This document shows positions 15,180 to 41,201 of a stretch of 64,000 nt of DNA, in pieces (the first letter of the stretch is position 1; each line of letters starts with the position of its first letter). Origin of the DNA: Actinomycetes bacterium (GTDB lineage: Bacteria; Actinomycetota; Acidimicrobiia; Acidimicrobiales; Palsa-688); contig JAKCDU010000009.1 of assembly GCA_021838445.1 (NCBI GenBank), positions 1-64,000 on the forward strand, written 5' to 3'. Under the pieces are notes generated by a model. It was not told the origin of the DNA, made no database searches, and was given only the letters and a program-made list of their open reading frames with translations. Position numbers and translations under genes: made by a program.

Positions 15180-16244
15180 TCAGCGCAGGAGCTCGGTGGC
15201 GCCGAGGTCCACGGCCTGAGCGGCCGCGCCGTTGGCCATGGTCACGAACATCTGGTCCCCCCGCTCGGTGCGCTCCACCATCATGGAGGCCGCCACCGCC
15301 ATGAAGAAGCCGGAGAAGCTGTGCCGGCGGTAGTCCTGCCAGCAGCGTTCCAGGGGGTAGTCGCCGATGGCGTAGGCGCACAGCCGCTCGTGGTAGGTCC
15401 GCACCATGTCCTGTTCGACGCGACGACGATCGAGGGGGTTCAGCGCGCCCGACAGGAAGTACGACACGTCGGAGACCCCCGAGCCGAGGCGCACCGTCTG
15501 CCAATCGACGACGATGACGGGACGGCTTCCGGCCGGGTCGCCGAAGAGGAGGTTGTCCAGGCGGAAATCGCTGTGGCACAACGTGAGCGGCCCGGGGTCG
15601 TCGGACAGCCACGTCGAGGGCCGGGCCAGTCGCTCGCCGACCTCGACCGACTCCTCGGTCAACTGTGCCCGGTAGCGCTGACAGAACTCCGGCCAGAGGA
15701 GCGCCACGATGGCTCCGACGTCCGGCGGGTCGGCGGCTCTGGCGGCCAGCCACGGCAGGTCCAGCAACGTGGGATCGGCCCAACGCGGTCCGTGGAGCCG
15801 GGCCGCCTGCTCCATCACCGGCACCACCGCGTCGGGTGCGCAGCCGGCGAGCTGGTCGCCGGGGACCGCGTCGACGTCCTCGAGCACGAGGACCACGTTG
15901 GCCGTGCCGGGCTGGACATCAGCGAAGTAGCAGCGCGGGCGGCACACCTCGACGGTGGTGGCCAGATCGCGGTAGAAGGCGACCTCCGTCTCGTAGGTCA
16001 GGGTCTGCACCCCGGCCGCCCGGCTGGTCTGCGAACGCGACGCGAACTTGACGACCACCGATGGGGGGCCGCCGCCGGGCCGGTCGTAGGTGAGCCGGTA
16101 GCGGATGTTGCAGCCGACCTGGCCGGTCCCGATGGGTGTGCCCTCGATCTCGGTGACGCGACCTCCCCCGAGGCCGCCACCCGCGTCGAGCACCGCGGTC
16201 ATCCATTCGGGCCCGACCTGGTCGGGATCCCACACGCCTTCCAT
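15180..16244 (-). CDS. Aminoglycoside phosphotransferase-like kinase
   Basis: A 354-aa APH/choline-kinase-fold protein. The catalytic loop LCHSDFRLDNLLFGD contains the Brenner HxDxxxxN motif, followed by the metal-binding VIVVDWQ; an ATP-binding Lys occurs in PSVVVKFAS. Relatives in actinobacteria are annotated as phosphotransferases near lipid genes and rarely modify antibiotics. ATG 16244 is preferred over GTG 16250 because the GGGGAGG site then has normal spacing. It is the last gene of a minus-strand run CoA-transferase, MpaB-like oxygenase, kinase, with 18 bp to the gene before it. Substrate unknown. Confidence 0.87.
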   Translation of the reverse strand: MEGVWDPDQVGPEWMTAVLDAGGGLGGGRVTEIEGTPIGTGQVGCNIRYRLTYDRPGGGPPSVVVKFASRSQTSRAAGVQTLTYETEVAFYRDLATTVEVCRPRCYFADVQPGTANVVLVLEDVDAVPGDQLAGCAPDAVVPVMEQAARLHGPRWADPTLLDLPWLAARAADPPDVGAIVALLWPEFCQRYRAQLTEESVEVGERLARPSTWLSDDPGPLTLCHSDFRLDNLLFGDPAGSRPVIVVDWQTVRLGSGVSDVSYFLSGALNPLDRRRVEQDMVRTYHERLCAYAIGDYPLERCWQDYRRHSFSGFFMAVAASMMVERTERGDQMFVTMANGAAAQAVDLGATELLR

Positions 16245-16262
16245 GAGCACCTCCCCTACCGC

Positions 16263-17057
16263 TCAGACTATCGGTCGGGCCAGGAGGGAACGCACCCGGA
16301 AGTCCCAGAGGAACCAGTTGAGGGGGAACCGCCGAGCCGGTCCGGGGAGTAGGCGGCGGGTCAGGGCCACCGCGGCGATGGCGGAGTCGAAGCGAGCCTG
16401 GTCGCCAGCTGACCATTCGAGGCCCATGGCGAGGCGGAACTCCGGCGCCAGGAACCCGGTCGTCAGCCAGAGGTTCCACGGCCCGTGGACGGCGCCGGCG
16501 GGGGATGGCAGGAAGCCCGAGGTGATCACATCCCACAGGTAGCGGTGGACCTTCGGGTCGATAGATATTCGCTGCAGACCGCCTGACCAGTAGTCCTCGA
16601 AAGCGGCCCGGTCCGGCGGCCACATCCCGGGTCGCACTTGCAAGGTGGTGCCGAGAGCCGCCGCGTCCCGGTAGAAGGCGTCAGCGTCGGCGCCGGCCAT
16701 GGGCCCGAAGAAGCGCCTGGCCACGTCCTCAGCGCCCCGGTAGAGGCAGGCCGCGACCCACAGCTGCAGTTGCGGGTCGGACGCATCGTAACCCACCGGG
16801 TGGCCCGGCCCGGAACGGACCGACTGGTGGGCCCGGCCCACCTCCGACCTCATGTGTCGGCGCTCGTCGTCACCGCCGAGGGTGGCGACGGCGAGATAGG
16901 TGAAGGTGGTGCGGAAGCGTTTGAGCGGATGGTCGCCGAGCCGTCCCGACTCCACGGTGCTTTCGAGCACGCCGTAGGCGACGGGAGGCCAGCTGAGCTG
17001 CATGACCACGTTGGCCGGTCCGGCCAGTATCGCTCCAAGACCGTCCAGCCGCTCCAT
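16263..17057 (-). CDS. Oxygenase MpaB family protein (DUF2236)
   Basis: A 264-aa protein of the MpaB/latex-clearing (Lcp)-related DUF2236 family. The N-terminal GPANVVMQLSWPPVAYGV helix, FRTTFTYLAVATLGGDDE with the following HxxV-type motif (GRAHQSV), and DPQLQLWVAACLY match the family, in which His residues bind a b-type haem or metal and cleave C=C or oxidise prenyl chains. It is 6 bp after the CoA-transferase gene and 18 bp before the kinase gene. With a CrtC-like protein opposite, an isoprenoid or other lipid substrate is a reasonable guess. Confidence 0.82.
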   Translation of the reverse strand: MERLDGLGAILAGPANVVMQLSWPPVAYGVLESTVESGRLGDHPLKRFRTTFTYLAVATLGGDDERRHMRSEVGRAHQSVRSGPGHPVGYDASDPQLQLWVAACLYRGAEDVARRFFGPMAGADADAFYRDAAALGTTLQVRPGMWPPDRAAFEDYWSGGLQRISIDPKVHRYLWDVITSGFLPSPAGAVHGPWNLWLTTGFLAPEFRLAMGLEWSAGDQARFDSAIAAVALTRRLLPGPARRFPLNWFLWDFRVRSLLARPIV

Positions 17058-17063
17058 GCCCGA

Positions 17064-18308
17064 TCAGTCCGGCCCGCGCGCCGTCTGCTCTGTGAAGACG
17101 ACGCCGTCGGCGACCAGGTCGTCGATGCGGGAGCGGTCGTAGCCGAGATCGCCCAGCACCTCGACGGTGTGCTCGCCGAGGTTGGGGGCCCGGTAGCGGG
17201 GCCCGGCCGGGTGCTCCGTGAAGTCCGCCGGCGAAGCCACCATCGTCATGGTCCCAGATTCGTCGGGGACGTCCACCAGACCGCCGGCCCCGACGAACTG
17301 CGGGTCGGCGATGAGCTCGTCCACGGTCTGGACCGGGGCCCAGAAGAAGTCGGGCTCGGTGGCGAAAATATCCGCCCACTCCGACAGAGGGCGGGTGGCG
17401 AAGATGCGGTCCAGCTCGGCGATGAGCTCGGCCGCGTGGGCGGCCCGCTCGGCCGGCCCGGCAAAGCGCTCGTCGTCGATCCACTCCGGATGCCCGACCG
17501 CCCGGGCCAGGGGAGGCCAGTGTCGGGCTCCTTCGAGGCCCACTATCCAGAACTGCCGCCCGTCGCCGGCGGTGTAGTTGTTGATGGCCGGGTTCCCCAT
17601 GGTGGTCCGCGTCCCCACCCGCACCGGCAGCCCCCACATCAGGGCGATGTTCACATCGAAACCGATGGTGTAGGCGCCCTGGCGCAGCAGTGACGAGGTG
17701 ACCAGCTCGCCCTGGCCGGTGCGCTCCCGGGCGAAGAGCGCGGCGCTGACCGCCCCGGCCATGGTCACCCCGGCGGAGTGGTCGCCCATGCCCCCCCTCT
17801 GGAACGGCAGGTTGCCGCCCGGTGGGGTGAGCGACGCGGCGACGCCGCTGCGGGCCCAGAACGCGGCGATGTCGTAGGCCGGCCGACCGGCGTCGGGCCC
17901 CGTCAGCCCGTACCCGGTGAGGATGGCGTAGACGAGGCGCGGGTTGCGGGCCCGCAGGACCTCCGGGCCGAGCCCGGCCCGTTCCAGCGCGGCCATGCGG
18001 ATATTGGTCAGGAAGACGTCGGCCCCGTCGATCAGGTCGTAGGCGACCTGGCGCCCCACCTCGCTGGAAAGGTCGACCGAGACGCTGCGCTTGGAGCGGT
18101 TGTCCAGCTCGAACACCGGGTTCGACGGTAGATCCCCGCCCAGCATGCGGCGGAAGGTACGGGCCGGGTCACCCGTCGGAGGCTCGATCTTGATCACGTC
18201 GGCTCCCCAGTCGGCCATGACCCCGCCCGCCGCGGGGCCCGCCACCCAGACCCCCAGCTCGACGACCTTCACGCCGCGAAGCGGCCCTGTACCGGTAGTG
18301 ATCGGCAT
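17064..18308 (-). CDS. CaiB/BaiF-type (class III) CoA-transferase
   Basis: A 414-aa family III CoA-transferase. Seen: GVKVVELGVWVAGPAAG at the N-terminus, MADWGADVIKIE, FELDNRSKRSVSVDL, and the catalytic Asp in RPAYDIAAF (D146) that forms the aspartyl-CoA anhydride. Members move CoA between carboxylic acids or racemise 2-methylacyl-CoA; the donor and acceptor cannot be named. The ATG at 18308 is 9 nt from TAGAGT, and this promoter overlaps that of the divergent amidohydrolase. It heads a three-gene unit with the MpaB-like and kinase genes. Confidence 0.9.
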   Translation of the reverse strand: MPITTGTGPLRGVKVVELGVWVAGPAAGGVMADWGADVIKIEPPTGDPARTFRRMLGGDLPSNPVFELDNRSKRSVSVDLSSEVGRQVAYDLIDGADVFLTNIRMAALERAGLGPEVLRARNPRLVYAILTGYGLTGPDAGRPAYDIAAFWARSGVAASLTPPGGNLPFQRGGMGDHSAGVTMAGAVSAALFARERTGQGELVTSSLLRQGAYTIGFDVNIALMWGLPVRVGTRTTMGNPAINNYTAGDGRQFWIVGLEGARHWPPLARAVGHPEWIDDERFAGPAERAAHAAELIAELDRIFATRPLSEWADIFATEPDFFWAPVQTVDELIADPQFVGAGGLVDVPDESGTMTMVASPADFTEHPAGPRYRAPNLGEHTVEVLGDLGYDRSRIDDLVADGVVFTEQTARGPD

Positions 18309-18317
18309 TGGAACCGG

Positions 18318-18327
18318 ACTCTAATCT
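18318..18327. promoter_or_regulatory. Overlapping divergent -10 boxes
   Basis: Minus-strand TAGAGT (18318-18323) precedes the CoA-transferase ATG by 9 nt. Plus-strand TAATCT (18322-18327) lies upstream of the amidohydrolase at 18363. They share two bases, so polymerase cannot occupy both at once. Confidence 0.5.
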
Positions 18328-18362
18328 ACGGTGGAGCCGGAACCACTGGGAGGGAGCCGCAC

Positions 18363-19556
18363 ATGGCAGACATCGGGTTCGAGTTCTTCGACTGCGACAA
18401 CCATTACTACGAGGCGCGCGACGCCTTCACCCGCCACCTGGACCCCGAGTTTCGCAAGCGGGCCATGCAGTGGGCCGAGGTGGACGGGAAGACCAGGCTG
18501 CTGGTCGGAGGCCGGATCAATCGGTTCATCCCCAATCCCACCTGGGATCCGGTGTCCAAGCCGGGTGCTCTGGACGAGTACTTCAGGGGCCGGAACCCCA
18601 AAGGCGCCGACTCACCGGAGCTGTTCGGCGAGCTCGACGCCCTGGCCGACCATCCCGAGTACCAGGATCGCGATGCCCGTCTGGCCCTCATGGACCGTCA
18701 GGGCATGGAGGGGGCTATCTTCCTTCCCACCCTCGGGGTCGGGATGGAGCAGTCACTGCGTCACGACCCCCCGGCTGCGGTGGCCGCGTTCCGGGCGTTC
18801 AACCGGTGGATGGAGGAGGACTGGGGGTTCGCCTACCGGGAGCGCATCTTCGCCGCGCCGTACCTCACGCTCATCGACCCGGTGGCGGCCGAGGAGGAGG
18901 TGCGCTGGGCGGTCGAGCACGACGCCCGGTTCCTGGTCATGGTCGGGGGCCCCGTCGTGGCCAACGGGATGGGACGCTCGCCGGCCGATCCGACCTACGA
19001 CCGGTTCTGGTCGGTGGTGAACGATTCAGGGGTCACGGTCTGCTTGCACGGGGGGGACAGCTACTACTCCACCTACCTGGCCGACTGGGGCGAGGCCAGC
19101 GAGTCGCAGGCTTTCCGCCAGAATCCGTTCCGTTCCATCGTGTCGTCCGATCACCACCAGGACACCTTCGCCAGCTTCTTGGCCCATGGCCTGTTCCATC
19201 GCTTCCCCAATCTGCGCGTGGCGTCCATCGAGACCGGGTCGGCCTGGGTGTTCCACCTGTTCGAGAAGCTGAAGAAGTCCTTCGGCCAGACGCCCCGGGC
19301 CTACCCCGAGGACCCCCGCGAGACGTTCCGCCGCCACGTCTGGGTTTCCCCCTTCTACGAGGACGAGCTGGACCGCCTGCGGGACGTGATGGGCGCCGAG
19401 CGCATCCTGATGGGATCGGATTTCCCTCACGCCGAGGGACTGGCCGAGCCGGCGAGCTATGTCAAAGACCTGAAGAACTTCGCCTACAGCGACGAGGACT
19501 GCCGTCTCGTGATGCGGGAGAACGGTCTGGCTCTCGCTCGGCGCCGCCGCGCCTGA
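18363..19556 (+). CDS. Amidohydrolase family protein (amidohydrolase_2)
   Basis: A 397-aa metal-dependent hydrolase or decarboxylase. The metal strand FDCDNHYYEARDAFTRHL opens the protein, and the end of the barrel contains RILMGSDFPHAEG with the catalytic Asp and a His. It is closely related to the 391-aa protein at 40026 (same DxDNHYYEAxDAFTRHL start, WINPF/WVSPF and GSDxPH motifs). The ATG has GGGAGGG at 18348-18354. It diverges from the CoA-transferase unit. Such amidohydrolases are abundant in actinobacteria that degrade lipids and cyclic compounds; the substrate is unknown. Confidence 0.9.
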   Translation: MADIGFEFFDCDNHYYEARDAFTRHLDPEFRKRAMQWAEVDGKTRLLVGGRINRFIPNPTWDPVSKPGALDEYFRGRNPKGADSPELFGELDALADHPEYQDRDARLALMDRQGMEGAIFLPTLGVGMEQSLRHDPPAAVAAFRAFNRWMEEDWGFAYRERIFAAPYLTLIDPVAAEEEVRWAVEHDARFLVMVGGPVVANGMGRSPADPTYDRFWSVVNDSGVTVCLHGGDSYYSTYLADWGEASESQAFRQNPFRSIVSSDHHQDTFASFLAHGLFHRFPNLRVASIETGSAWVFHLFEKLKKSFGQTPRAYPEDPRETFRRHVWVSPFYEDELDRLRDVMGAERILMGSDFPHAEGLAEPASYVKDLKNFAYSDEDCRLVMRENGLALARRRRA

Positions 19557-19561
19557 CCGCT

Positions 19562-19589
19562 CCGGCGGCGGCCGTGGCGCCGCCGCCGG
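19562..19589. terminator. Strong hairpin between convergent genes
   Basis: An 11-bp perfect stem CCGGCGGCGGC/GCCGCCGCCGG with loop CGTGGC fills the 33-bp gap between the stops at 19556 and 19590. No T-run follows, as is usual for actinobacterial terminators; probably bidirectional. Confidence 0.6.
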
Positions 19590-20429
19590 TTACTCCCGAG
19601 CGAGGAGCTGATCGGGGCCGAGGCCGGTGAACGGCCTGAAATCGGGCCCCGAACGCAGGTTGTGGCCGCCGTCGACGGCGAGGTGCTGGCCGGTGATGCG
19701 GGCCGCGGCGGGCCCGAGCAGGAAGGTCACCGCCGAGGCGATGTCCTCAGGGGCGGACACCCCCCCGAGCGGAGTGTTGACCAGATAGCTCTCGTAGACC
19801 GCGCTGTCGCGGGGTATCCCCTCCATGATCTCAGTGGTGACGAAACCCGGCTGAACCGAGTTGAAGCGCACCCCGGCGGGCCCGTACTCGTCGGCCGCGT
19901 TGCGCATCATGGCGTCGACGGCGGCCTTGGCCACCGGGTAGGCACCGAACACCGGGTGGGTCGCGGTGGCTGCGATGGAGGACATCCCGACGAAGCTCCC
20001 CCCTCCGGCGGCGACCAGCCTGGGCACGGCGTGCTTGACGCAGAGCATCGTCCCGACCACGTTGAGGTCGAGCACCCTCCGGTACTCGGCCACGTCCTGG
20101 AGGTGGTAGGGCATCAGGCCGCCGCCCCCACCGGCGTTGGCCACCACCCCCCGGAGGTTGCCGGCGAAGGCGACGGTGGCCTCGACGGCCCCCGCCACGT
20201 CGTCCTCCACGGTAACGTCAGCGACGACCAGCTCCACGTGCAGCCCCTCGGCCCGCAGAGCCGAGGCGACTTCCTCGAGACGGCTCCTGGTCCGCCCACA
20301 GATCACCACCTGCGCTCCCTCCCGGGCGGCCGCCGCCGCGCACGCTTTACCGATACCGGTTCCTCCGCCGGTCACCAGGATGCCGCGACCGGCGAGACTT
20401 CCGCCGGATCGATCTTGCTGAGATGACAA
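19590..20429 (-). CDS. SDR family oxidoreductase
   Basis: A 279-aa classical SDR. The cofactor motif TGGGTGIG is near residue 20, ANAGGGGG replaces the usual NNAG, and the active-site Tyr/Lys are in YPVAK; the C-terminus has the usual VDGGHN. A dehydrogenase or reductase acting on a hydroxyl/keto group with NAD(P). The TTG at 20429 follows an AAGGGG site. It is the last gene of the minus-strand operon with the HAPMO-type monooxygenase, cupin and aminoacylase genes, so it may process the alcohol or ketone handled by the monooxygenase. Confidence 0.88.
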   Translation of the reverse strand: MSSQQDRSGGSLAGRGILVTGGGTGIGKACAAAAAREGAQVVICGRTRSRLEEVASALRAEGLHVELVVADVTVEDDVAGAVEATVAFAGNLRGVVANAGGGGGLMPYHLQDVAEYRRVLDLNVVGTMLCVKHAVPRLVAAGGGSFVGMSSIAATATHPVFGAYPVAKAAVDAMMRNAADEYGPAGVRFNSVQPGFVTTEIMEGIPRDSAVYESYLVNTPLGGVSAPEDIASAVTFLLGPAAARITGQHLAVDGGHNLRSGPDFRPFTGLGPDQLLARE

Positions 20430-20468
20430 ATCAAACCCCTTGTCGTGAAGTCGAGCAGTATCGCCGAG

Positions 20469-22403
20469 TCAGGCCATCGGCGTGAAATCGAAGTCGCCCA
20501 GGTCGGGCGCTTTGGTCCAGGACCAGTAGTCGACGAGGCGCCACGGGCTGAGCGTGTGGATCTCGCCGTGGGCGTTCTTGAAGTGCGAGTGGTGGATCGA
20601 AGGCTGGGCCCAGACGAGCGTCCGGATCTCCTCCTGGGTGCGGCGGTGCCAATCCTCGTAGACCTCCCGGCGCGGCTCCATGGCCTTGAAACCCCCGGAG
20701 ATGAGCACCTCCAGGCAGGCGCTGATGTAGCGCATCTGGCACTCAGAGTGGAATATCAGGCTGCCCCCATGCGCCAGGTTGGTCGCCGGCCCGTACATCA
20801 TGAACAGGTTGGGGAATCCGGGTACGGTGATCCCGAGGTGGGCGGCCGGCCGCTCACCCCACATCTCCCGCAGATCGACCCCGTCTCGTCCGACGATGTT
20901 CATCGGGTAGAGGAAGCGGTTCGAATGGAAGCCGGTGGCGTAGACGATGACATCGGCGGGGTGACGCTCACCGTCGACGGTGACGATGGCGTCCGCTTCG
21001 ATGCGCTCGACCGCGGTGCGGATCAGGTCCACGTCGTCCCGGCGCAGGGTCTGCAGCCAGCTCCCGTTGTCCTGGAGCGTGCGTTTGCCGGTGGCCGGGT
21101 AATCGGGCACGACCTTGGCCAGCAACTCGGGATCGTCGCCCACCTGGCTCTCTATCCACTGGGTGAAGTGTTGGCGGGTGAGCTCATTGAGCTCGGAGAC
21201 GGCGCGCTGCTGGTCGGGGTAGTCGGGGTCGACGCGGGCTCCCTGCAGGCCGCTGTCGCAGGCCGGCCAGAAGATCAAGAAGCGGTACCAGCGTCCGTAG
21301 AACGGAAGGTGGCGCAGCGCCCAGCGCACCCCGGGACCGACCAGGGCGTGGTAGTTGGGGTTGGGGAACATCCACTGCGCAGTGCGCTGGAAGATCGACA
21401 GGTGACCGACCTCTGCGGCAATGGCTGGAGCGATCTGGAACCCGGTGGCGCCGGCGCCGACCATGGCGACGCGCTTGCCGGAAAGCTCGACGCTGTGATC
21501 CCACCGGGCCGAGTGGAACGACGGGCCCGCGAAAGTGTCCCGGCCGGGGAAGTCGGGGATGTGCGGCCGGTTGAGTTGCCCCACGGCGCTGATCACGGCC
21601 CGGGCTTTCATCTCGGACAGCTCGCCGAGCGAGTTGCGCACGGTTACGGTCCACACGCCGGTGGCGTCGTCCCAGGCCATCGCCACCACTTCGGTCTGCC
21701 AGCGCACGTGGGGCTCGATGCGGTGCTTGGTCATGACCGAGGTGAAGTAGGCCTGCAGCTCGGGCTGGCGGGCGAAGTACTCGCTCCAGTGGTCGCTCGG
21801 TTCGAAGCTGTAGCAGTAGAAGTGGTTACCGACGTCGACACGGGCGCCGGGGTAGGTGTTCTCCCACCACGTTCCCCCCGGACCGGCGTTCTTCTCGACG
21901 ATGGTGAAGGGGATGCCGGCCTCTTTGAGTCGGATACCGGCCAGCAGCCCCGACTCTCCGCAGCCGACGACGACCACCGGGAACTGCTCGCGGTCATCGC
22001 CGGCCGCGGGCGGCGCCCGCCGGGCGTCGGTGCCGTCGAGCTCCATCTCCTCCATGAGCATCGGCACGTATTCGAGGGGTACGTCGGCGCACGCCAGCCA
22101 GGACATCATCTCCCGGAGCAGCTCCGCCGACACCGGCTCGGGCTCGGGGCAGCCGCGGTCGCGGTAGTCGGAGATGATGGGCAGGGCCAGCTGCCTCACC
22201 CGCTCCTTGTCCTCCTCGGACATGAAGCCCTGAACCTCGTTGAGGAACAGGCCGGCCGGCCGCAGGGGACCTCGGATCAGTTCGGGGTCGCCGGACATGT
22301 GCACGAGCGAGAGCATCAGAGTTGGGATGCTCACATCCCCAAGCGCGGCCGCGATCTCGTCGTCCGGGGTGTCGAAGGGCTCCCCGGCGTGTGGGTTACG
22401 CAA
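20469..22403 (-). CDS. HAPMO-type Baeyer-Villiger flavin monooxygenase
   Basis: A 644-aa FAD/NADPH enzyme. Residues 1-140 are a helical N-terminal extension as in 4-hydroxyacetophenone monooxygenase (about 640 aa). The FAD motif GCGESG is at 147-152, the BVMO fingerprint FAGPSFHSARWD at 291-302, and the NADPH motif VGAGATG at 315-321. It would insert oxygen beside a carbonyl to form an ester. The start is TTG at 22403; later starts would cut into the conserved extension. It follows the cupin gene by 16 bp. Whether acetophenones or other ketones (steroid, cyclic) are substrates cannot be read from sequence. Confidence 0.88.
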   Translation of the reverse strand: MRNPHAGEPFDTPDDEIAAALGDVSIPTLMLSLVHMSGDPELIRGPLRPAGLFLNEVQGFMSEEDKERVRQLALPIISDYRDRGCPEPEPVSAELLREMMSWLACADVPLEYVPMLMEEMELDGTDARRAPPAAGDDREQFPVVVVGCGESGLLAGIRLKEAGIPFTIVEKNAGPGGTWWENTYPGARVDVGNHFYCYSFEPSDHWSEYFARQPELQAYFTSVMTKHRIEPHVRWQTEVVAMAWDDATGVWTVTVRNSLGELSEMKARAVISAVGQLNRPHIPDFPGRDTFAGPSFHSARWDHSVELSGKRVAMVGAGATGFQIAPAIAAEVGHLSIFQRTAQWMFPNPNYHALVGPGVRWALRHLPFYGRWYRFLIFWPACDSGLQGARVDPDYPDQQRAVSELNELTRQHFTQWIESQVGDDPELLAKVVPDYPATGKRTLQDNGSWLQTLRRDDVDLIRTAVERIEADAIVTVDGERHPADVIVYATGFHSNRFLYPMNIVGRDGVDLREMWGERPAAHLGITVPGFPNLFMMYGPATNLAHGGSLIFHSECQMRYISACLEVLISGGFKAMEPRREVYEDWHRRTQEEIRTLVWAQPSIHHSHFKNAHGEIHTLSPWRLVDYWSWTKAPDLGDFDFTPMA

Positions 22404-22419
22404 CTCGGTCCGGGCGGGA

Positions 22420-22878
22420 TCAGTCGGTGAGCACGGATGGGCGACCCAGTCCCTGCTGCTCGCAGAGAGCCAGGTAGTGGGCCAGTGTCCCGGCGCCGTC
22501 GCTGACCGACTCGATATTGCCGTCGGAGTCGAGGTTGAGGTTCATGCCGAGCATGTGGAACCAGACCCGGGTGTCGTCCTCGATGCACTGGAGCGTGTGG
22601 ACCGAGTTGGCCGGTTCGTAGAGGAATGATCCGGCCCGGTTGACGTAGTCGTATTCCTTGTACTTCCAGCCACCTGAGCTCGTGTAACCCCAGACCGGAC
22701 CGGTGTGGCGGTGGGTCTGCACCTCGAAGCCGGCTTGGAACACGTTCTCGATGATCCAGAGGCTCTCCTTCTCCCGGACCTGCAGGACCCGGATGAGGTT
22801 GCCGCCCCCCAGGTCGGCGAAGGGGATCTCGTCCACTCCGAGGTGGACGGCGGTGGGGACGCCGGTGGCGATGCTCAT
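22420..22878 (-). CDS. Cupin, 2,4-prime-dihydroxyacetophenone dioxygenase family
   Basis: A 152-aa single-domain cupin. Metal-binding histidines are H56 and H58 in THRHTG and H94 in ANSVHTL; the usual cupin Glu is absent, giving a three-His site like that of 2,4-prime-dihydroxyacetophenone dioxygenase (DAD), which splits the side chain of hydroxyacetophenones. The GWKYKEYDYVNRAGSFLYEP stretch also fits that family. Its ATG overlaps the stop of the aminoacylase gene (ATGA), and the monooxygenase gene is 16 bp downstream. A dioxygenase role is inferred from family and neighbours. Confidence 0.78.
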   Translation of the reverse strand: MSIATGVPTAVHLGVDEIPFADLGGGNLIRVLQVREKESLWIIENVFQAGFEVQTHRHTGPVWGYTSSGGWKYKEYDYVNRAGSFLYEPANSVHTLQCIEDDTRVWFHMLGMNLNLDSDGNIESVSDGAGTLAHYLALCEQQGLGRPSVLTD

Positions 22879-24605
22879 TTGGCTCTGGCTCCTCTGATCA
22901 GGGCGCCGGGAACGGCGCCGGTGCTCTCTCCGTGGTCGAAGGTGACCTGGCCGGACTTGACGGTGTACTCGTAACCCTCGGCCCGCTGAATCAGGCGGCG
23001 GGCGCCTCCCGGCAGGTCGTGGACCAGTTCGGGGCGGTGCAGCCCGATGCGCTCGGCGTCTATGACGTTGATGTCACCGGTCAGGCCGGGCACCAGCCGG
23101 CCCCGGTCGCCGAGCCCGTAGAGGTCGGCGGTGACCGATGTGATCTGGCGTACCGCCTCCTCGATCGGTATGCGGCCGCTCCGGCGGTCGCGGGCCCAGT
23201 AGCTGAGCATGAACGTCGTGGTCGACGCGTCACACGTCTGACCGGCGTGGGCGCCGCCGTCGCCGAGGCCGAACACCGTGTCCGGGTGGACCAGCATGGC
23301 CCTGGTGGCCTCGAGGTCCCCGCTGCTGTAGTTCAGCACCGGCGCGTTCAACAGTTGGCGGCCGCCGTCCTCGAGGAGGGCGTCGAGGAAGGTCGTCCAC
23401 ACGTCGGCCCGGCGCGACGAGGCGATCCCGGCCACGCTGTCGGAGGGGGCCGGCTCGTAGTTGGGGGGGTCGCCGAGCAAATAGGTGCGGCCCGGCGACA
23501 TGAACCCCTGGATCATGGCGTCGGTTTCCACCGCGCGCGCCCCCTCGATCAGACGGCGGCGCAGGTCGTCGTCGGCCTGGATCCTCGCCACCTGCTCTTC
23601 CCAGGGGAGCAGCCCGAGCATGGCTTCGGTCCATACCGGTGTGAAGGAGAACGGGTGGAAGGTCTGGAAGCCGAGCAGCACCGATACGGTGCGGGCCGTG
23701 ACCTGCGGTCGCAGTGGAGCGCCCGCCGCGTTGGCCTCGGAGACCAGGTCCAAGAGCTTGCGCCACTGGTCGGGATCGGCGTTGTTCTGGTTGAGCACGA
23801 ACGACACCGGCCGGTGGGACTCGGCGGCGAGGCGGCGCATCCAGGCGATCTCCTTCTCGGGAGCGGCCAGGTCCTCGCCCAGCGCGCCCGCCGCGGCCAA
23901 CTCGAACACGCCGGTCCCGAGCTCACCGAGGACCCGGCCGATACCGAACAGCTCGTCCTCGGCGGCGAAGGTGCCGGGCACCGGCTCGCCGTCGATGGCT
24001 CGGTGGGCCAGGGTCCGGCTGGTCGAGAAGCCGAGGGCGCCGGCGGCGATGCCTTCCCGCACGAGGGCGGCCATCGCTTCGATGTCCTGGGCGGTGGCCG
24101 GCTCGTTGCGGGCGCCCCGCTCGCCCATGATGAAGGCCCGGATGGCGCCGTGGGGCACCTGGGTGCCTACGTCGAGCGCTTTGGGGGCCCGCTCGACGGC
24201 GTCGAGGTACTCCGGGAAGCTCTCCCACGCCCACTTGATGCCGCTGGCCAGGGCCGCTCCGGGGATGTCCTCCACCCCTTCCATCAAGCCGATCAGCCAC
24301 TCCCTGCGGGAGGGTTCGCAGGGCGCGAAGCCGACCCCGCAGTTGCCCATGACGACCGTGGTCACGCCGTGCCAGCCAGTCGGGCTGAGGCTCGGGTCCC
24401 AGGTGACCTGGCCGTCGAAGTGGGTGTGCACGTCGACGAAGCCGGGCGTGACCAGAGCCCCGTCGGCGTCGATCTCCCGACGGGCCGGACCGTCCACCCG
24501 GCCCACCTCGCGGATCAGACCGTCGGTCACCGCCACATCCGCGGCGCGCGCCGGGGCCCCGGTCCCGTCGACCACGGTGCCGCCTCGAATCACCAGATCG
24601 TGCAT
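22875..24605 (-). CDS. N-acyl-D-amino-acid deacylase-type amidohydrolase
   Basis: A 576-aa amidohydrolase of the D-aminoacylase branch. A beta-sandwich start MHDLVIRGGTVVDGTGAP leads to VTPGFVDVHTHFDGQ with the metal HxH pair; GLGDGGAHAGQTCDAS near the C-terminal part of the barrel carries the conserved Asp. The family removes acyl groups from D-amino acids, but many members hydrolyse other amides. ATG 24605 is chosen because AGGGGG precedes it and the upstream open frame is not homologous. First gene of the four-gene operon, with a TAGCAT element farther upstream. Confidence 0.88.
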   Translation of the reverse strand: MHDLVIRGGTVVDGTGAPARAADVAVTDGLIREVGRVDGPARREIDADGALVTPGFVDVHTHFDGQVTWDPSLSPTGWHGVTTVVMGNCGVGFAPCEPSRREWLIGLMEGVEDIPGAALASGIKWAWESFPEYLDAVERAPKALDVGTQVPHGAIRAFIMGERGARNEPATAQDIEAMAALVREGIAAGALGFSTSRTLAHRAIDGEPVPGTFAAEDELFGIGRVLGELGTGVFELAAAGALGEDLAAPEKEIAWMRRLAAESHRPVSFVLNQNNADPDQWRKLLDLVSEANAAGAPLRPQVTARTVSVLLGFQTFHPFSFTPVWTEAMLGLLPWEEQVARIQADDDLRRRLIEGARAVETDAMIQGFMSPGRTYLLGDPPNYEPAPSDSVAGIASSRRADVWTTFLDALLEDGGRQLLNAPVLNYSSGDLEATRAMLVHPDTVFGLGDGGAHAGQTCDASTTTFMLSYWARDRRSGRIPIEEAVRQITSVTADLYGLGDRGRLVPGLTGDINVIDAERIGLHRPELVHDLPGGARRLIQRAEGYEYTVKSGQVTFDHGESTGAVPGALIRGARAK

Positions 24606-24775
24606 CCGATCCCCCTGTCTCATCTGTCGGCCCGATGCTAAAGGCTCCCGGGCCGGTCGCTCCACGCCCCGGGACCCGCCGTGCCGCTGGGCAGGACTGC
24701 GGCCTGGGCCCGGGCCTTTCCGTCGGCGCCCAGTCCGGCGCCCCGGCTGCTTCCGCTGGGGCCGGTGCCGCTGCT

Positions 24776-24781
24776 TAGAGT
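24776..24781 (+). promoter_or_regulatory. -10 box of a leaderless promoter
   Basis: TAGAGT, 6 nt before the GTG of the aldo/keto reductase at 24788. Confidence 0.6.
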
Positions 24782-24787
24782 GGTCGG

Positions 24788-25765
<978 letters not shown>

Positions 25766-25812
25766 CCCGGCCCGACCGCCGGCGGGATGGCCTCTGAGAA
25801 GGAGCCCCGGTG

Positions 25813-27525
25813 CTAGCGGGGGACGGTGAGCAGCAGACACCCGGCGATGGGGCCGCCGCCCACCCCGACCACCGCGACCTCGGGAGCTCGGGGAACCTGC
25901 CTGTCGCCGGCTTGGCCGCGCATCTGCAGGCAGGCTTCGTGCAGCACCCAGTAGCCGTGCATACGACCGGCGGACAGCTGACCCCCGTAGGTGTTGAGGG
26001 GGAGCTCGCCGGTGAGGCATATACGGCTGGCCCCTTCGACGAAAGGACCCGATTCGCCCTCTCCGCACAGCCCTAGGGCTTCCAGCCAGGCCAGGGTCAA
26101 GAACGTGAACCCGTCGTAGAGCTGGGCCATCTGCACATCCCCGGGCCTCAACTCCGTGCGGTTCCACATGTCCGCGGCGGCGTCCCAGGACGCCATCCTC
26201 GGGTAGTCGGGACGGTGGAACCACCCGCCCGTGCCGGGCGAGACGCCGATGGCTTCGAGGCGCGGGGTGCGGTGGGGGGCGTCGGGCCCGTAGGCGGCGC
26301 TGGACAGCACGAAGGCGATGGAACCGTCGACCGGCACATCGCAGTCGAGCAGCCCGAACGGGCTCGACACCGGGCGTGCGGCCATGTAGTCGTCCATCGT
26401 CATGGGGTCCCGGTAGACGGCGGCGGGGTTCAGTCCGGCGTTTCGCCGGGAGTTGACGGCCAGCCACCCGAGCTGCTCTTTGGTGGTGCCGTAGAGGTCC
26501 ATGTGCCGGCGGGCGGTCAAGGCCAGCCAGTTGGCTGCCGAGAAGGCGTTGGCCGCCAGCAGCTCCCCGGCGTCGACCATCACCCGACCGAGCGCGGCCA
26601 GGGCGTCGCCGGCCGGCCGTTGTGCTCCGTCGGTCGGGGCCATGCCACCGCCGAGCATCTGCACCGTCCGGTAGACCACCACGTGGCGGGCCCGTTGCTC
26701 GCCGATGGCTGCGCCCGCCGCCATGACCGGGGCCAGCAGGCCTCCCTCCTCGACGCTGCCCCCGCTGAAGCGGGGCTCGATACCGAGAGCCCGGGCCACC
26801 TCGGCTGGCGGGGTGTCGCCGAGGGAGGCCAACCCGTCGATGTCGCCGGGTTCCAGCCCGGCGTCGGCGATGGCCTCCCTCACCGCCGCCATCGTCATCT
26901 CGGCGTGGGCCTGGCCGGTGCGCCGACCGATGCGGGACATCCCGATACCGGAGATGACCGCTCCCCGTTCCGGTGCCGTCGCCGGCCGCGCCGTCCCGGC
27001 GGCATTTCGGCCGGCTCCGACCGCCGCCCGGTCGGTCCCCGCCGTCGGGGTTGCTTCGACGGCCTCCGGCGGCCCGGGATTCCTCGCCGACCCCGTGCCC
27101 CCGTCAGCGCCATCGACCGGTCGGAAGACCGGGTAGAAGAGCTCGCCGTGGTTCTCGAAGGCGACGGCCAGCTCCATGCCCGGGCCCAAATCGGCCTCCG
27201 TGCAGTCGATCAGGTTGGTGGCCAGGCGCAGGTCGTCCTGCTCGACCAGGACGACGATGGCTATCAGGTAGGGGACGGGGAGGTCAGGGTGGTAGGGGTG
27301 ACTGTTGGTCGTCCAGGTGAGTAGGTGGGCCCGGCCGCTCGCCGCGACCGCCAGGAGCCCCTGCCGGCAGCCGGGGCACAGGGTCTGAGGGGGCAGCGCC
27401 CACCGCCCACACCCTGGACAACGCCCCACCATCAGACGCCCCTCCCGTCCCCCTTCGAGGAAGGCCCGGTTCTCGTCGGTGACGGGCGGGAGGTTACGGG
27501 CCGCTACGGGTTCCACTTCGGTCAT
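25813..27525 (-). CDS. DUF35 OB-fold/zinc-ribbon protein fused to a thiolase-like (lipid-transfer, Ltp2-type) domain
   Basis: A 570-aa fusion. Residues about 20-140 are a DUF35 module: rubredoxin-like zinc ribbon CPGCGRWALPPQTLCPGC, then an OB fold. A Pro/Ala/Gly-rich linker (about 140-190) leads to a thiolase-like domain starting AVISGIGMSRIG. The usual nucleophilic Cys block (CASG) is missing and a conserved YDGFT segment is present, as in steroid side-chain aldolases of the Ltp2 type, which work with a separate DUF35 partner (ChsH2). A retro-aldol or CoA-lipid role is inferred. ATG 27525 is preferred over 27534 because TAGGAT lies 7 nt ahead of it and overlaps the other ATG. Confidence 0.82.
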   Translation of the reverse strand: MTEVEPVAARNLPPVTDENRAFLEGGREGRLMVGRCPGCGRWALPPQTLCPGCRQGLLAVAASGRAHLLTWTTNSHPYHPDLPVPYLIAIVVLVEQDDLRLATNLIDCTEADLGPGMELAVAFENHGELFYPVFRPVDGADGGTGSARNPGPPEAVEATPTAGTDRAAVGAGRNAAGTARPATAPERGAVISGIGMSRIGRRTGQAHAEMTMAAVREAIADAGLEPGDIDGLASLGDTPPAEVARALGIEPRFSGGSVEEGGLLAPVMAAGAAIGEQRARHVVVYRTVQMLGGGMAPTDGAQRPAGDALAALGRVMVDAGELLAANAFSAANWLALTARRHMDLYGTTKEQLGWLAVNSRRNAGLNPAAVYRDPMTMDDYMAARPVSSPFGLLDCDVPVDGSIAFVLSSAAYGPDAPHRTPRLEAIGVSPGTGGWFHRPDYPRMASWDAAADMWNRTELRPGDVQMAQLYDGFTFLTLAWLEALGLCGEGESGPFVEGASRICLTGELPLNTYGGQLSAGRMHGYWVLHEACLQMRGQAGDRQVPRAPEVAVVGVGGGPIAGCLLLTVPR

Positions 27526-27532
27526 GGGCGGC

Positions 27533-27538
27533 ATCCTA
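27533..27538 (-). promoter_or_regulatory. -10 box of a leaderless promoter
   Basis: TAGGAT on the minus strand, 7 nt before the ATG at 27525; it overlaps the alternative ATG at 27534, which argues against that start. Confidence 0.6.
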
Positions 27539-27569
27539 AGGATCGCGCCCGTCGCGCCCGTCGCCGGTT

Positions 27570-29726
27570 TCAGTTGATCAGAGGGTCGCGGGGCAGTCCC
27601 AGAATGCGCTCACCGATCTGGTTGCGCTTGATCTCCGACGTCCCGCCGGCGATAGACAGGGCCCGACTGCCCAGGGTGGCCCGCGCACCGGGCATCCCCG
27701 GGCCGTCGAGGAAGGCGGAGTCGGCGCCGCCGACGGCGAAGAGGATCCGGGCTGCCTCCTGTACCAGTTCGGACAGCACCAGCTTGGTGATGGCTCCCTC
27801 CGGTCCCGGTTCGCCTCCGGCCACGGCCCGGTGAGCGCTGCGCATGTTGAGCAGTTCGGTGGCCTGCTGCTGGGCGATGTACCGGCCGAGGCGCTCGGCT
27901 CCCCCGGCCAGGCGTTCGGGGGCGGCGTCGTAGGGCTGGAGTAGGGCCCCGTGGGGGATGCTCAGACCCCCCCCTCCGCCACCGATGCTCACGCTCTCGT
28001 TGCCGAGAGTGGCCCGGGCCACGGTCCAACCGCCGTCCACCGGGCCGACCACGTCGTCGTCGGGGACGAACACGTCGTTGAAGAAGACCTCGTTGAAGTC
28101 CGAGTCGCCGGTGGCTTGGCGGAGCGGACGCACCGTGACCCCCGGACCGTGCATGTCGATCACCATCATGGTGATGCCCTTGTGCTTGGGCACGTCGGGG
28201 TCGGTGCGGATGGTCGCCAGCCCGTAGGAGGCCAGATGGGCTCCGCTCGTCCACACCTTCTGGCCGTTGACCAGCCAGCCGCCCTCTACCCGCTTACCGC
28301 GGGTCTTGATGCCCGCCGCGTCGGAGCCGGCGTCGGGCTCGCTGAAGAGCTGACACCAGATGACCTCCTGGGCCAGGGCGGGGGCCACCCAGCGGGCGAT
28401 CTGGTCCTCGGTGGCGTGCTGCACCAGAGTCAGGATCACCCAGCCGGTGATCCCGTACTGCGGCTTGTGTATCCCCGCCGCGGCGAACTCCTGCTCGATC
28501 ACCAGCTGCTCGACCGCCCCGGCGTTGCGGCCCCAGGGCCTGGGCCAGTGGGGGACGGCGTAGCCGCTGTCGAGCATGGCCGTCCGCCGGTCCTCGTGGC
28601 TCATGTCCTTGACCTGCTCGACGAAGCGCACCACCTCCTGGCGTATGGTCTCGGCCTCCGGGGGCAGGTCCACGGCTCGGCTGCGGACCACACCGGCGCG
28701 GGCCTGGTCGGTGACGTCACGGGCCGTCTGGTCGGTGTCGAGCAGGGCGGCGATGGCCGCCGCCCGGCGGAGGTAGAGATGGGCGTCGTGCTCCCAGGTG
28801 AACCCGATGCCTCCGTGCACCTGGATGTTGGTCTGGGCGTTCTCCAGCGCCGCCGGGACGGCCAGAGTGGCGGCGATAGCCGCGCTGTAGGCCCGCTCGG
28901 CGGGCCCGCTGCGCCCGGCGCGCGACGCGTCCCAGGTGGACGAGGTGGCCAGCTCGGCGGCGACGGCCATGTTGGCGCAGTGGTGCTTGACGGCCTGGTA
29001 AGTGCCGATCGGCCGCCCGAACTGGATCCGGTCACGGGCGTACTGGGCGGCCATCTCGGTGGTGGCGGAGGCCACCCCGGTGGCTTCGGCGGCCAGGAGG
29101 ACCCGGGCCGTGTCGATCAGTATCTGCCGACCGCCGGTGATGATCTGCGCCGGCGCGCCGCTGAAGGTGACATGCGCCGAGCGTCGGGCGGGGTCGAGGT
29201 TGGACAGCTCCTCGAGCTTCACGCCGTTCGCGGCGCGCTCCACCACCGCCACGTCGTCGCCGGCCACCACGACGAGCAGGTCGGCTGTCGGGGCTCCAAG
29301 CACGCCGGGAGCCCGCCCCGACACGGCGCCGCCCGACACGCTCAGGTCGCCCCGCAGGCCGATCGCCGCGGTTCGGGACCCGTCGGCCAGCCCGGGAAGC
29401 AGAGCACTCCGCAACCGGTCACTCCCGGCTTCGGCGATGGTGGCACTGGCGATGACGGTGGGCACGAACGGCCCGGGGCAGATGGCCCGGCCGAGCTGTT
29501 CCACCACGACGACGAGCTCGGGCAGGCCGAAGCCCGAGCCGCCCAGATCCTCGGGCAGGTGCAGGCCCAACCAGCCGAGGGATGCCATCTCGGCCCAGAA
29601 GGCCGGTAGGCCTTCCGAGTCGGCTTCGAGGAGGGCCCGGTTGGCGCTTCGAGCACCGCTCTTGGCCAGGAAGTCCCGGGCCGTTTCGGCTAGAGCCTGG
29701 TGGTCATCGGAAATGGCGATGGGCAT
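27570..29726 (-). CDS. Two-domain acyl-CoA dehydrogenase, FadE34-like
   Basis: A 718-aa protein made of two acyl-CoA dehydrogenase domains in tandem. Domain 1 (about 1-350) has GLHLPEDLGGSGFG and QVHGGIGFTWEHDAHLYLRR; domain 2 (about 370-718) has CQLFSEPDAGSD, GQKVWTSGAH and SIAGGTSEIKRNQIGERILGLPR. This layout and length match FadE34/CasC-type enzymes, which dehydrogenate the CoA-activated side chains of cholesterol or bile acids with FAD. The ATG at 29726 is 6 nt from TAGGTT. The DUF35-thiolase gene follows on the same strand with its own promoter. Confidence 0.88.
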   Translation of the reverse strand: MPIAISDDHQALAETARDFLAKSGARSANRALLEADSEGLPAFWAEMASLGWLGLHLPEDLGGSGFGLPELVVVVEQLGRAICPGPFVPTVIASATIAEAGSDRLRSALLPGLADGSRTAAIGLRGDLSVSGGAVSGRAPGVLGAPTADLLVVVAGDDVAVVERAANGVKLEELSNLDPARRSAHVTFSGAPAQIITGGRQILIDTARVLLAAEATGVASATTEMAAQYARDRIQFGRPIGTYQAVKHHCANMAVAAELATSSTWDASRAGRSGPAERAYSAAIAATLAVPAALENAQTNIQVHGGIGFTWEHDAHLYLRRAAAIAALLDTDQTARDVTDQARAGVVRSRAVDLPPEAETIRQEVVRFVEQVKDMSHEDRRTAMLDSGYAVPHWPRPWGRNAGAVEQLVIEQEFAAAGIHKPQYGITGWVILTLVQHATEDQIARWVAPALAQEVIWCQLFSEPDAGSDAAGIKTRGKRVEGGWLVNGQKVWTSGAHLASYGLATIRTDPDVPKHKGITMMVIDMHGPGVTVRPLRQATGDSDFNEVFFNDVFVPDDDVVGPVDGGWTVARATLGNESVSIGGGGGGLSIPHGALLQPYDAAPERLAGGAERLGRYIAQQQATELLNMRSAHRAVAGGEPGPEGAITKLVLSELVQEAARILFAVGGADSAFLDGPGMPGARATLGSRALSIAGGTSEIKRNQIGERILGLPRDPLIN

Positions 29727-38446: not shown

Positions 38447-39166
38447 ATGGAGCACATGAGGGAGGCGGCTCCGGTGGCGTTCCGAGCGGCGGCCGGAGCA
38501 GTGTGGCTGGTGGGCACCTCGGCTTCGCCGGTCGGTGACGACGGGCTGCTGCTCTCGGTCACCGTCCGGCCTGGGGCCGTGGCCACTATCCGTACTACCG
38601 CCGCCTCGGTGCTGTGGGCCGGCCGGGGCAGCCAGCAGGTCATCGACGTCGGGGTCGGTGCCGACGCCCGCTTGGAATGGCGCCCCGAGCCGGTAGTGGT
38701 GACCGGGCGCAGCGACCATCGTCAGACGGCCCGGGTCGACCTCGCCGCCACGGCGTCGCTGTTCTGGCGGGAGGTAGTGGTGCTCGGGCGGTCAGGGGAA
38801 CGGCCGGGCCGCTTCCACAGTGAGCTGTCGGTCTCAGCGGGCGGACGGCCGCTGTTCTGCCACTCGCTGGACACCCGGGACCCCGGCTGGGAGGGGCCGG
38901 CGTTGGTCGGCTCCCACCGGGTCGTGGCGTTCGCCCTGACCGCCGGCGACGGCCGCCCCCCGGCCGCCGCCGGTGAGCGTTGGAGCGTCAGCCCGCTCGA
39001 GGGTCCCGGCGGCTACGCCGTGGCTCTCGGGGACAGCAGCGTCGAAGCCGAGCGGGCCCTCGCCGAGGCGGTCTCTTACTTCCCCCCTCCGGGCCGGCGC
39101 CGGTCGGGCCACTCCACCGGCGAGCACAGCCACGAGCACCGCCGCCCCGAGGAGCGCCCCGATTAG
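38447..39166 (+). CDS. ureD: Urease accessory protein UreD (UreH)
   Basis: A 239-aa beta-rich scaffold that binds apo-urease with UreF/UreG. GDDGLLLSVTVRPGA, TTAASVLW and EWRPEPVVVTGRSDH are typical. Homology seems to begin about 12 codons before the ATG at 38447 (ASVTIGPGG), so translation may start at CTG 38405, which overlaps the ureG stop; the conventional ATG is listed. The last 25 residues are His/Arg-rich (HSHEH) and not conserved. The 3-prime end runs into the oppositely oriented CcdA-like gene. Confidence 0.85.
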   Translation: MEHMREAAPVAFRAAAGAVWLVGTSASPVGDDGLLLSVTVRPGAVATIRTTAASVLWAGRGSQQVIDVGVGADARLEWRPEPVVVTGRSDHRQTARVDLAATASLFWREVVVLGRSGERPGRFHSELSVSAGGRPLFCHSLDTRDPGWEGPALVGSHRVVAFALTAGDGRPPAAAGERWSVSPLEGPGGYAVALGDSSVEAERALAEAVSYFPPPGRRRSGHSTGEHSHEHRRPEERPD

Positions 39167-39964
39167 CTGGGCGTGGGCGTCGATGGGGTTGGCGACGTCC
39201 AGCTGGAGCCGCTCCACCAGCCTCTGGGGGGCGAAGGTCCGGCCCGGAGCGGCGATGTCGGCCACCCAGTACCAGGCCAGGTACGAACCGATGAGGATCA
39301 TCAGCACCCCGCCGGCCTGCGGCACCCAGCGCGACAGCCTTCTGAGCGGGCGCCCCGCGCCGCGTCCCGCGACGGCCATCCCCACGGCCAGGGCGGCCAG
39401 GATGGTGCCCATCCCCAGTCCGTAGGCGAGCAGGCCGGTCACCCCCCGGAAGGAGCCGTTCTGGCTGAAGCTGGCGGCCACCCCGCCGACGAAGAGGGGC
39501 AGGGCGCAGCCGATCGAGGCCACGCCGTAGGAGAAGCCGAACACCGCCAGGCCGGCGGGCCGCCTCAGCCCGGCGCCGGTGCCGAGCTCGGGGAGGGGAA
39601 GCTTGAATGACCGGCGCGTCAGAGTGAGCACCCCGATGGCGACCATGGCGACGCCGAAGGCGACCATCACGTAGCTGGCGACCGTCGCCGACCTTCCGAC
39701 GGCCGCTGACCAGCCTGCCTCGGTGAGCAGCCCGAGGACGCCGAAGAGCACCAGGAAGCCGACGGTGGTGTAGACCGCCCCCACTACGGCCCTCAACGAG
39801 CGCGCCGCCAGCCCGTCGTGCTCGCCGGCGGCGCCGACGAACAGCTCCGAGTAGGCGGGCAGCAGAGGGAAACCGCACGGGTTGACGGCGGCCATCATCC
39901 CCAGCGTGTAGGGGTAGAGCAGCGACGAGGAGGCCACGACCCCCTCGATGCTACGTAGGCCCAC
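38834..39964 (-). CDS. CcdA/DsbD-type transmembrane thiol transporter
   Basis: A 376-aa frame. Residues 1-290 form a six-segment CcdA-like membrane protein: AAVNPCGFPLLPAY carries the first redox Cys, and GFSYGVASIGCALPLF the second. It moves electrons across the membrane for cytochrome c maturation or other thiol reduction. The last 85 residues are Arg/Gly-rich, not family-like, and read antisense to ureD, so the functional part probably ends near 39100. No thioredoxin partner is adjacent. The start at 39964 faces the amidohydrolase gene at 40026. Confidence 0.82.
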   Translation of the reverse strand: MGLRSIEGVVASSSLLYPYTLGMMAAVNPCGFPLLPAYSELFVGAAGEHDGLAARSLRAVVGAVYTTVGFLVLFGVLGLLTEAGWSAAVGRSATVASYVMVAFGVAMVAIGVLTLTRRSFKLPLPELGTGAGLRRPAGLAVFGFSYGVASIGCALPLFVGGVAASFSQNGSFRGVTGLLAYGLGMGTILAALAVGMAVAGRGAGRPLRRLSRWVPQAGGVLMILIGSYLAWYWVADIAAPGRTFAPQRLVERLQLDVANPIDAHAQLIGALLGAAVLVAVLAGGVARPAPARRGEVRDRLGEGPLGFDAAVPESHGVAAGTLERADAPTLTGGGRGAAVAGGQGERHDPVGADQRRPLPAGVPGVQRVAEQRPSAR

Positions 39965-40002
39965 CCGCTTCGGCCAGACAGGCCCGCCTCTTCCCCAAAA
40001 GC

Positions 40003-40020
40003 AGAACGTGTTCTACAGTT
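40003..40020 (+). promoter_or_regulatory. KstR-like palindrome overlapping a leaderless -10 box
   Basis: CAGAACGTGTTCTA (40003-40016) matches the mycobacterial KstR operator pattern TnnAACnnGTTnnA except for the first base; its core is AGAAC-GT-GTTCT. TACAGT (40015-40020), 5 nt before the ATG at 40026, is the -10 box and shares two bases with the palindrome, so a bound repressor would block the promoter. The regulator itself is not in the window. Confidence 0.6.
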
Positions 40021-40025
40021 GTGGC

Positions 40026-41201
40026 ATGGACACGACGGGACCGGTGTGGGATGGCGACAACCACTACTACGAGGCGACCGACGCCTTCACCAGGCACCTG
40101 GCCAAGCAGGACGGGCCCCGCTGTGTGCAGTGGGCGACCATCGACGGCCGTCAGTACCACGTCATCGGCGGACGGGTCAGCCGGGCCGTGGCCAACGCCA
40201 CGTTCGACCCGGTGGCCAAGCCGGGCTGCCTGAGCGAGTACTTCCGCGGCAACCCCAACGGCCTCAACCCGCTGGAGATACTGAAAGACCACGAGCCGGT
40301 CCGCCCCGAGTACCACCGCCCCGACGCCCGGGTCGAGACGCTCGACCGTCAGGGCGTGGAGGGCTGCTTCATGTTCCCCACCCTCGGGATGATCTACGAG
40401 GAGCTGCTCAAGCACGACCCGGTGGCGGTCTGCAAGACCTTCCGGGCCTTCAACCGGTGGCTGGCCGAGGACTGGCCCTTCGACTACCAGGGGAGGATCA
40501 TCTCGGCGCCCTACCTGACGCTGGCCGACGTCGACTGGGCTGTCGAGGAGTTGGAGTGGGTGCTCGACCAGGGTGCCCGTCTCATCGTGATGCGCACCGC
40601 GGCGCCCACGACCGAGATCGGGCGGCGTAGCCCCTTCGACCCGATGTTCGACCCGTTCTGGGCCCGCCTCAACGAAGCCGGAGTCACCCTGGTCGTGCAC
40701 GCCGGCGACAGCGGACCCAGCTCCGACGGCTACGCAGTGGACGGTTTCGCCGCCACCTTCAAGGGTGGCTCGGTGCCGTCCGTCAAGAGCTTCGCCATCG
40801 AGAAGGCCGTCCACGACTACCTGCTGTCGATGGTGCTGGCCAATCACTTCACCCGCTTCCCCCGACTGCGGGTGGCCTCGGTGGAGAACGGCGCCGAGTT
40901 CCTCCCCGACCTGTTCCGCAAGCTGCGCTCCCAGGAGCGCAAGATGAAGGGCTACTTCGCCGACGACCCGGTGGAGATCTTCCGCCGGCACATCTGGATA
41001 AACCCGTTCTGGGAGGACGACCTGCAATCGGTGGTGGAGTGGATGGGCTCCGACCGGGTCATGTTCGGATCCGACTGGCCTCACATCGAGTCACTGCCCG
41101 AGCCGCTCGACTATCTGCCCGAGACCAAGGTGCTGTCCGACCGGGACCGCCGTCTGGTCCTCCACGACAACGCGCTGGAGTTGGCCCGACCGCTGGCCTG
41201 A
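40026..41201 (+). CDS. Amidohydrolase family protein (amidohydrolase_2)
   Basis: A 391-aa paralogue of the protein at 18363. It opens with VWDGDNHYYEATDAFTRHL (metal strand), contains TLVVHAGDSG, and ends the barrel with RVMFGSDWPHIES. Expected to be a metal-dependent hydrolase or decarboxylase; substrate unknown. ATG 40026 is chosen over the longer frame because a -10 box ends 5 nt before it and the homology starts there. A KstR-like operator suggests control together with sterol or lipid catabolism. It converges with an MFS gene. Confidence 0.9.
   Translation: MDTTGPVWDGDNHYYEATDAFTRHLAKQDGPRCVQWATIDGRQYHVIGGRVSRAVANATFDPVAKPGCLSEYFRGNPNGLNPLEILKDHEPVRPEYHRPDARVETLDRQGVEGCFMFPTLGMIYEELLKHDPVAVCKTFRAFNRWLAEDWPFDYQGRIISAPYLTLADVDWAVEELEWVLDQGARLIVMRTAAPTTEIGRRSPFDPMFDPFWARLNEAGVTLVVHAGDSGPSSDGYAVDGFAATFKGGSVPSVKSFAIEKAVHDYLLSMVLANHFTRFPRLRVASVENGAEFLPDLFRKLRSQERKMKGYFADDPVEIFRRHIWINPFWEDDLQSVVEWMGSDRVMFGSDWPHIESLPEPLDYLPETKVLSDRDRRLVLHDNALELARPLA

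Follow-up and report, generated by a model that had tools for sequence, protein, structure and literature searches.

The window analysed here, a stretch of 64,000 nucleotides, contains a gene (40026-41201, + strand) encoding a 391-residue PF04909 'amidohydrolase', as assigned by its Pfam family (Amidohydro_2), its oxygenase relatives and a structure model. It is preceded by a KstR-type operator palindrome, CAGAACGTGTTCTA (40002-40015, + strand), recognised by motif match and by its occurrence at the same position in orthologues. The inner 12-mer, AGAACGTGTTCT, was located at 40003-40014 on the + strand by a motif scan of the window; CAGAACGTGTTCTA agrees with the published motif TnnAACnnGTTnnA at 7 of its 8 fixed bases and with the extended palindrome TAGAACnnGTTCTA at 11 of 12 positions. 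The last TA of the operator provides the first two bases of a -10 box, TACAGT (40014-40019, + strand; TANNNT type), so that the operator and the box, as recognised by sequence, overlap. The ATG at 40026 lies six bases past the box; at this spacing transcription probably starts at the initiation codon itself, which would make the promoter leaderless. The preliminary description had placed a KstR-like operator at 40003-40020; the operator is real, but its position was off by one. The overlap with a leaderless -10 box, also described there, is borne out, both the overlap and the start spacing being conserved in relatives.

An upstream start at 39948, given in the open reading frame list, was rejected as an over-extension; since relatives align from approximately residue 1 of the protein starting at 40026, the latter is most likely the gene start. 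On its other side the operator adjoins a divergent gene for a DsbD-like membrane protein (38834-39964, - strand). No -10 box was seen on inspection of the sequence on that side, and the DsbD-like gene is probably not a target of the operator. The other neighbour of the enzyme gene encodes a 492-residue protein that reads as an MFS transporter.

The assignment of the gene as an amidohydrolase holds with respect to its Pfam family; it is, however, a hydrolase by family name only, and it has the ligand set of the dinuclear oxygenases. The nearest relatives with solved structures are MAP2389c (4dzi), PtmU3, AibH2, Geobacillus ARO (8sm7) and DitZ, of which PtmU3 and AibH2 are dinuclear hydroxylases, PtmU3 being a diiron enzyme (PMC7782822, PMC10127204, PMC10401708, PMC10811679). 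The six metal ligands of AibH2/PtmU3, plus a seventh acidic residue, are all present, and are invariant in the relatives that cover the sites. The predicted ligands comprise the D-x-H motif (D11-N12-H13, codons at 40056-40064; D and H in 87/87 relatives covering the site), H225 (40698-40700; 89/89), E287 (40884-40886; 88/88) and the D..H.E motif (D350-W-P-H353-I-E355, 41073-41090; 86/86), all encoded on the + strand. The last of these aligns with GSDYPHLE of PtmU3, with the Glu at E355 being the same as in that enzyme. The structure model has a pLDDT of 90.6 and, when used in a fold search, ranked 4dzi first, followed by PtmU3, DitZ and SfbO, and then the mononuclear ACMSD decarboxylases.

Because the ligand set is invariant and the fold search ranks PtmU3 and its like before ACMSD, the enzyme is read as a dinuclear oxygenase rather than a hydrolase; on sequence and model the oxygenase assignment is likely and the 'hydrolase' label probably wrong. 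The alternative, which concerns the enzyme and not the operator, is that the protein is a mononuclear metal hydrolase or decarboxylase with a superficial likeness to the oxygenase ligand set. PF04909 does include decarboxylases, hydratases and hydrolases (PMC10811679), and ACMSD structures also match the model; the alignment of the invariant D-x-H, H, E and D..H.E residues with those of the diiron enzyme PtmU3, and the placing of PtmU3, DitZ and SfbO above ACMSD, make this alternative unlikely. The family has 31 PF04909 matches in this genome. Two further PF04909 genes are present in the window (5278-6372 and 18363-19556, both + strand), the second with the full dinuclear-oxygenase ligand set; the operator is absent from both. 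A small Rieske partner gene adjoins 90% of AibH2-like genes (PMC10401708); the genes flanking the enzyme gene here are the DsbD-like and MFS-type ones named above.

The extent to which the palindrome can be distinguished from background depends on how strictly it is defined. The loose published motif, with one mismatch allowed, has 10 matches in the window against 2.7 expected and is uninformative alone; with two mismatches, the whole genome gives 1175 matches against 1488 for the control, i.e. no signal. By contrast, a search of the whole genome (3.99 Mb) for the near-perfect palindrome AGAAYNNGTTCTA gave 5 strand hits, and the reversed control gave none; as one site is read on both strands, the hits correspond to 4 places, and all of them are at gene starts. 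Hits to AGAAYRYGTTCTR with one mismatch are almost all intragenic, the best-scoring sites being at gene starts. The signal is confined to the near-perfect palindrome at gene starts, and the loose counts carry none. The controls in these and the following comparisons were simple shuffles, reversed versions of the patterns and random windows, and the related genomes compared are not independent of one another. Within the 64,000-nucleotide window, no other intergenic site matching at least 10 of 12 positions was found; a site at 22736 was discarded as an operator, as it lies inside a cupin gene.

The KstR switch controls lipid-degradation genes in cholesterol-degrading mycobacteria. When a KstR homologue was sought in the genome studied here (G000), two KstR-like TetR proteins were found, on contigs C80 and C75. 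The homologue on C80 (C80:112541-113146) is 33% identical to M. tuberculosis KstR overall and 57% identical in the helix-turn-helix (HTH) region, and has the motif on its own promoter, GAGAATGTGTTCTA lying directly before its start. It scores 132.8 bits, below the 280-bit cut-off of the NCBIfam equivalog model (NF033703), and is therefore termed 'KstR-type' rather than KstR proper. Scanning of promoters, by a pattern search of the genome and in the retrieved sequence stretches, revealed that the motif is shared by kstR and lipid-catabolism promoters. Other sites in G000 are those of kstR itself, a divergent pair of Rv3520c-like and Rv3521/ltp4-like genes, an operon on C75 with an acyl-CoA dehydrogenase gene, and an acyl-CoA ligase gene; in addition, AGAACAGGTTCCA, some 60 bp ahead of the gene for an NDMA-dependent alcohol dehydrogenase on C87, is a plausible site. 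The divergent site adjoins the C80 kstR gene, between genes for a TIGR03559 (Rv3520c-type) oxidoreductase and for ChsH2-OB/PRK07937 proteins, with the PRK07937 gene being ltp4-like on our own reading of the gene order. By analogy, this site can be regarded as the counterpart of the M. tuberculosis Rv3520c/Rv3521 site, which binds KstR in vitro in electrophoretic mobility shift assays (PMC1995591).

The operator is conserved with the enzyme gene. All 8 distinct orthologues of at least 74% identity, i.e. those from the sister genome, G016, G034, one Acidimicrobiales MAG and four Frankia/Pseudofrankia genomes, have the palindrome (at least 11 of 12 positions) 24-29 bp before the aligned start. 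In the wider set of relatives, a palindrome of at least 10 of 12 is present in 14 of 92 rows, among which are the window's own row, a duplicate and a locus selected for its motif, compared with 0.5% of random windows. The more distant relatives bearing the palindrome are L062, L067 and L084, and it is present in 3 of the 21 loci of the class that were retrieved later (L245, L251, L253). The final TA of the operator opens a TANNNT box in 14/14 enzyme-gene sites ending in TTCTA, these having been found by position, and in 12 of those sites an ATG or GTG follows 6-8 nucleotides past the box. On the enzyme tree the palindrome is clustered, requiring 7 changes against 12.3 in shuffles; the members of the main clade without it are L037, L039, L040 and a Microthrix-type group, and there are separate occurrences outside the main clade.

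Some close orthologues of the Microthrix type (72-74% identity) are without the palindrome although their genomes have both a KstR homologue and the motif elsewhere, which speaks against the operator reading. Microthrix-type orthologues of 58-61% identity share a different conserved promoter, containing TACTACATAAGGTTGTC and GCCCGTTGTGTCGTAGATTG (loci L048, L050-L054, L056-L059, L061, L064-L066, L082, L085 and L094), the sequence of which suggests control by another regulator. The motif is likewise carried by a crotonase gene that lies ~1.6 kb upstream of the enzyme gene in Frankia and Pseudofrankia. The sister contig (L029, JAGWSF010000062.1) is titled Acidobacteriota; this title looks wrong, in that the same gene is present in G001, which belongs to the genus of the window and the relatives of which are Acidimicrobiia by name.

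The distribution of the motif among genomes largely follows that of the regulator. Summed over the 20 genomes in which a KstR homologue scores at least 110 bits, the motif has 211 occurrences and the control 19; the totals for the four genomes without a clear homologue are 9 and 8, with seven of the nine in a single genome, G069. Enrichment of the motif goes with the presence of a KstR homologue, the one exception being G069. In that genome, from which the enzyme locus L039 comes, there are 7 occurrences against 0 for the control, and the search for KstR homologues gave nothing above 40 bits. The motif lies upstream of the genome's own kstR in G000 and G001, five Frankia-type genomes, G036, G049 and G074. 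TAGAACAGGATCTA, which departs from the palindrome by the same single base each time, is present in all five of the Frankia/Pseudofrankia kstR promoters (L178-L182).

The sequence comparisons lend good support to a KstR-type regulon of which the enzyme gene is a conserved member; we assign a probability of roughly 0.8 to the palindrome being a KstR-type operator through which the gene is regulated. A dimer of the C80 KstR homologue would bind the palindrome and, as the operator extends into the -10 box of the leaderless promoter, would keep RNA polymerase off, with repressor and polymerase competing for the same bases. The model follows mycobacteria, where the KstR motif partly overlaps the -10 region and is proposed to obstruct polymerase (PMC1995591). 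The repressor may then be released by a ligand derived from lipid, which, as with the mycobacterial protein, is probably an acyl-CoA, so enabling transcription from the start codon of the PF04909 gene. The enzyme, which is likelier to be a dinuclear iron or manganese/iron oxygenase, would probably hydroxylate an acyl-CoA of the same catabolic programme.

It may instead be that a KstR-family paralogue, e.g. the C75 TetR protein, or another TetR protein recognising the same half-site, binds the palindrome, in which case a parallel regulon with a different inducer would be involved. The gene for the C75 protein is ~6 kb away from the acyl-CoA dehydrogenase operon that bears the motif, two KstR-like proteins are encoded in several genomes, and in G069 the motif is present and KstR was not detected. 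The promoter of the C75 paralogue is, however, without the motif, and its HTH region is less KstR-like (45%, compared with 57% for C80), making binding by a paralogue or other TetR protein improbable. That the palindrome arose by chance within an AT-rich -10 region is scarcely credible, despite the AT-richness of such regions and the frequency of the loose published motif, given that both its place and its sequence are kept across Acidimicrobiia and Frankiaceae, with 0.5% expected per stretch, and that the motif is enriched where a KstR homologue is present but not, with the one exception, where none is.

The interpretation given in the preliminary description is partly supported overall: KstR-type regulation is borne out, and a sterol as inducer or substrate is conjectural. 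The context cited there, FadE34-like and Ltp2-like genes elsewhere in the window, does not contribute, in that neither gene has the operator. A steroid-ring pathway under KstR control was sought and not established: the sole KshA-type match in the genome is marginal, and no site of at least 10 of 12 was found in the neighbourhood of the gene for an HsaC-like dioxygenase. The best match of that dioxygenase is 2zi8/2zyq, which we take to be M. tuberculosis HsaC. The window also contains a catabolic-looking cluster without an operator (15180-29726); its genes encode ecdysteroid-kinase-like, MpaB/Lcp-type oxygenase, CoA transferase, flavin monooxygenase, cupin, Amidohydro_3, thiolase-ChsH2 fusion and two-domain acyl-CoA dehydrogenase proteins. 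The proposed inducer is modelled on mycobacterial KstR, which has 3-oxo-cholestenoic acid and CoA esters as its ligands (PMC9782250). To the conjecture that the enzyme acts on an acyl-CoA derived from a sterol or isoprenoid we give somewhat less than even odds. More tentative still is the wider proposal that an entire actinobacterial subfamily of PF04909 'amidohydrolases' comprises dinuclear-metal oxygenases of sterol-/isoprenoid-CoA catabolism, which would produce hydroxylated acyl-CoA under KstR-type control far beyond the mycobacteria.

The results extend the KstR motif, together with a KstR homologue bearing a site on its own gene, to the Acidimicrobiia and Frankiaceae. The type of regulon was already known, and it is the link to an orphan oxygenase family that is the interesting part: the presence of the same switch at the same place in KstR-bearing relatives ties a family of probable oxygen-using enzymes to a KstR-type circuit. 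The PF04909 probable-oxygenase family thereby acquires a regulatory context and, with it, a class of candidate substrates that can be tested. Were the enzyme gene controlled by KstR, its expression should rise during growth on a sterol or a related isoprenoid, and the acyl-CoA esters of that compound would be the first candidate substrates.

The closest known regulatory system is the KstR (Rv3574) regulon of M. tuberculosis and M. smegmatis (PMC1995591), with which the system described here shares a TetR regulator of the same family, the palindrome TAGAACnnGTTCTA, an operator lying partly over the -10 region, a self-site on kstR and the Rv3520c/Rv3521 target pair. It differs from the mycobacterial regulon in its host, a soil actinobacterium of the Acidimicrobiia, in having a regulator of 33% identity and few sites, and in having a PF04909 oxygenase-like gene as a target. 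No amidohydrolase is named as a KstR target in the main text of PMC1995591, and none is stated to belong to a KstR regulon in the part of the literature that was searched. With regard to the enzyme, PtmU3 (PDB 6omp; PMC10127204, PMC7782822) is similar in fold (TM-score 0.72 on the query) and shares all of the metal ligands, including the Glu that replaces an Asp of AibH2, but is only ~21% identical. PtmU3 is a biosynthetic diiron hydroxylase of a diterpenoid-CoA, whereas the gene in the window appears to belong to a catabolic regulon. MAP2389c from Mycobacterium avium subsp. paratuberculosis (PDB 4dzi) belongs to the same subfamily, with 42% identity and the same aligned ligands.
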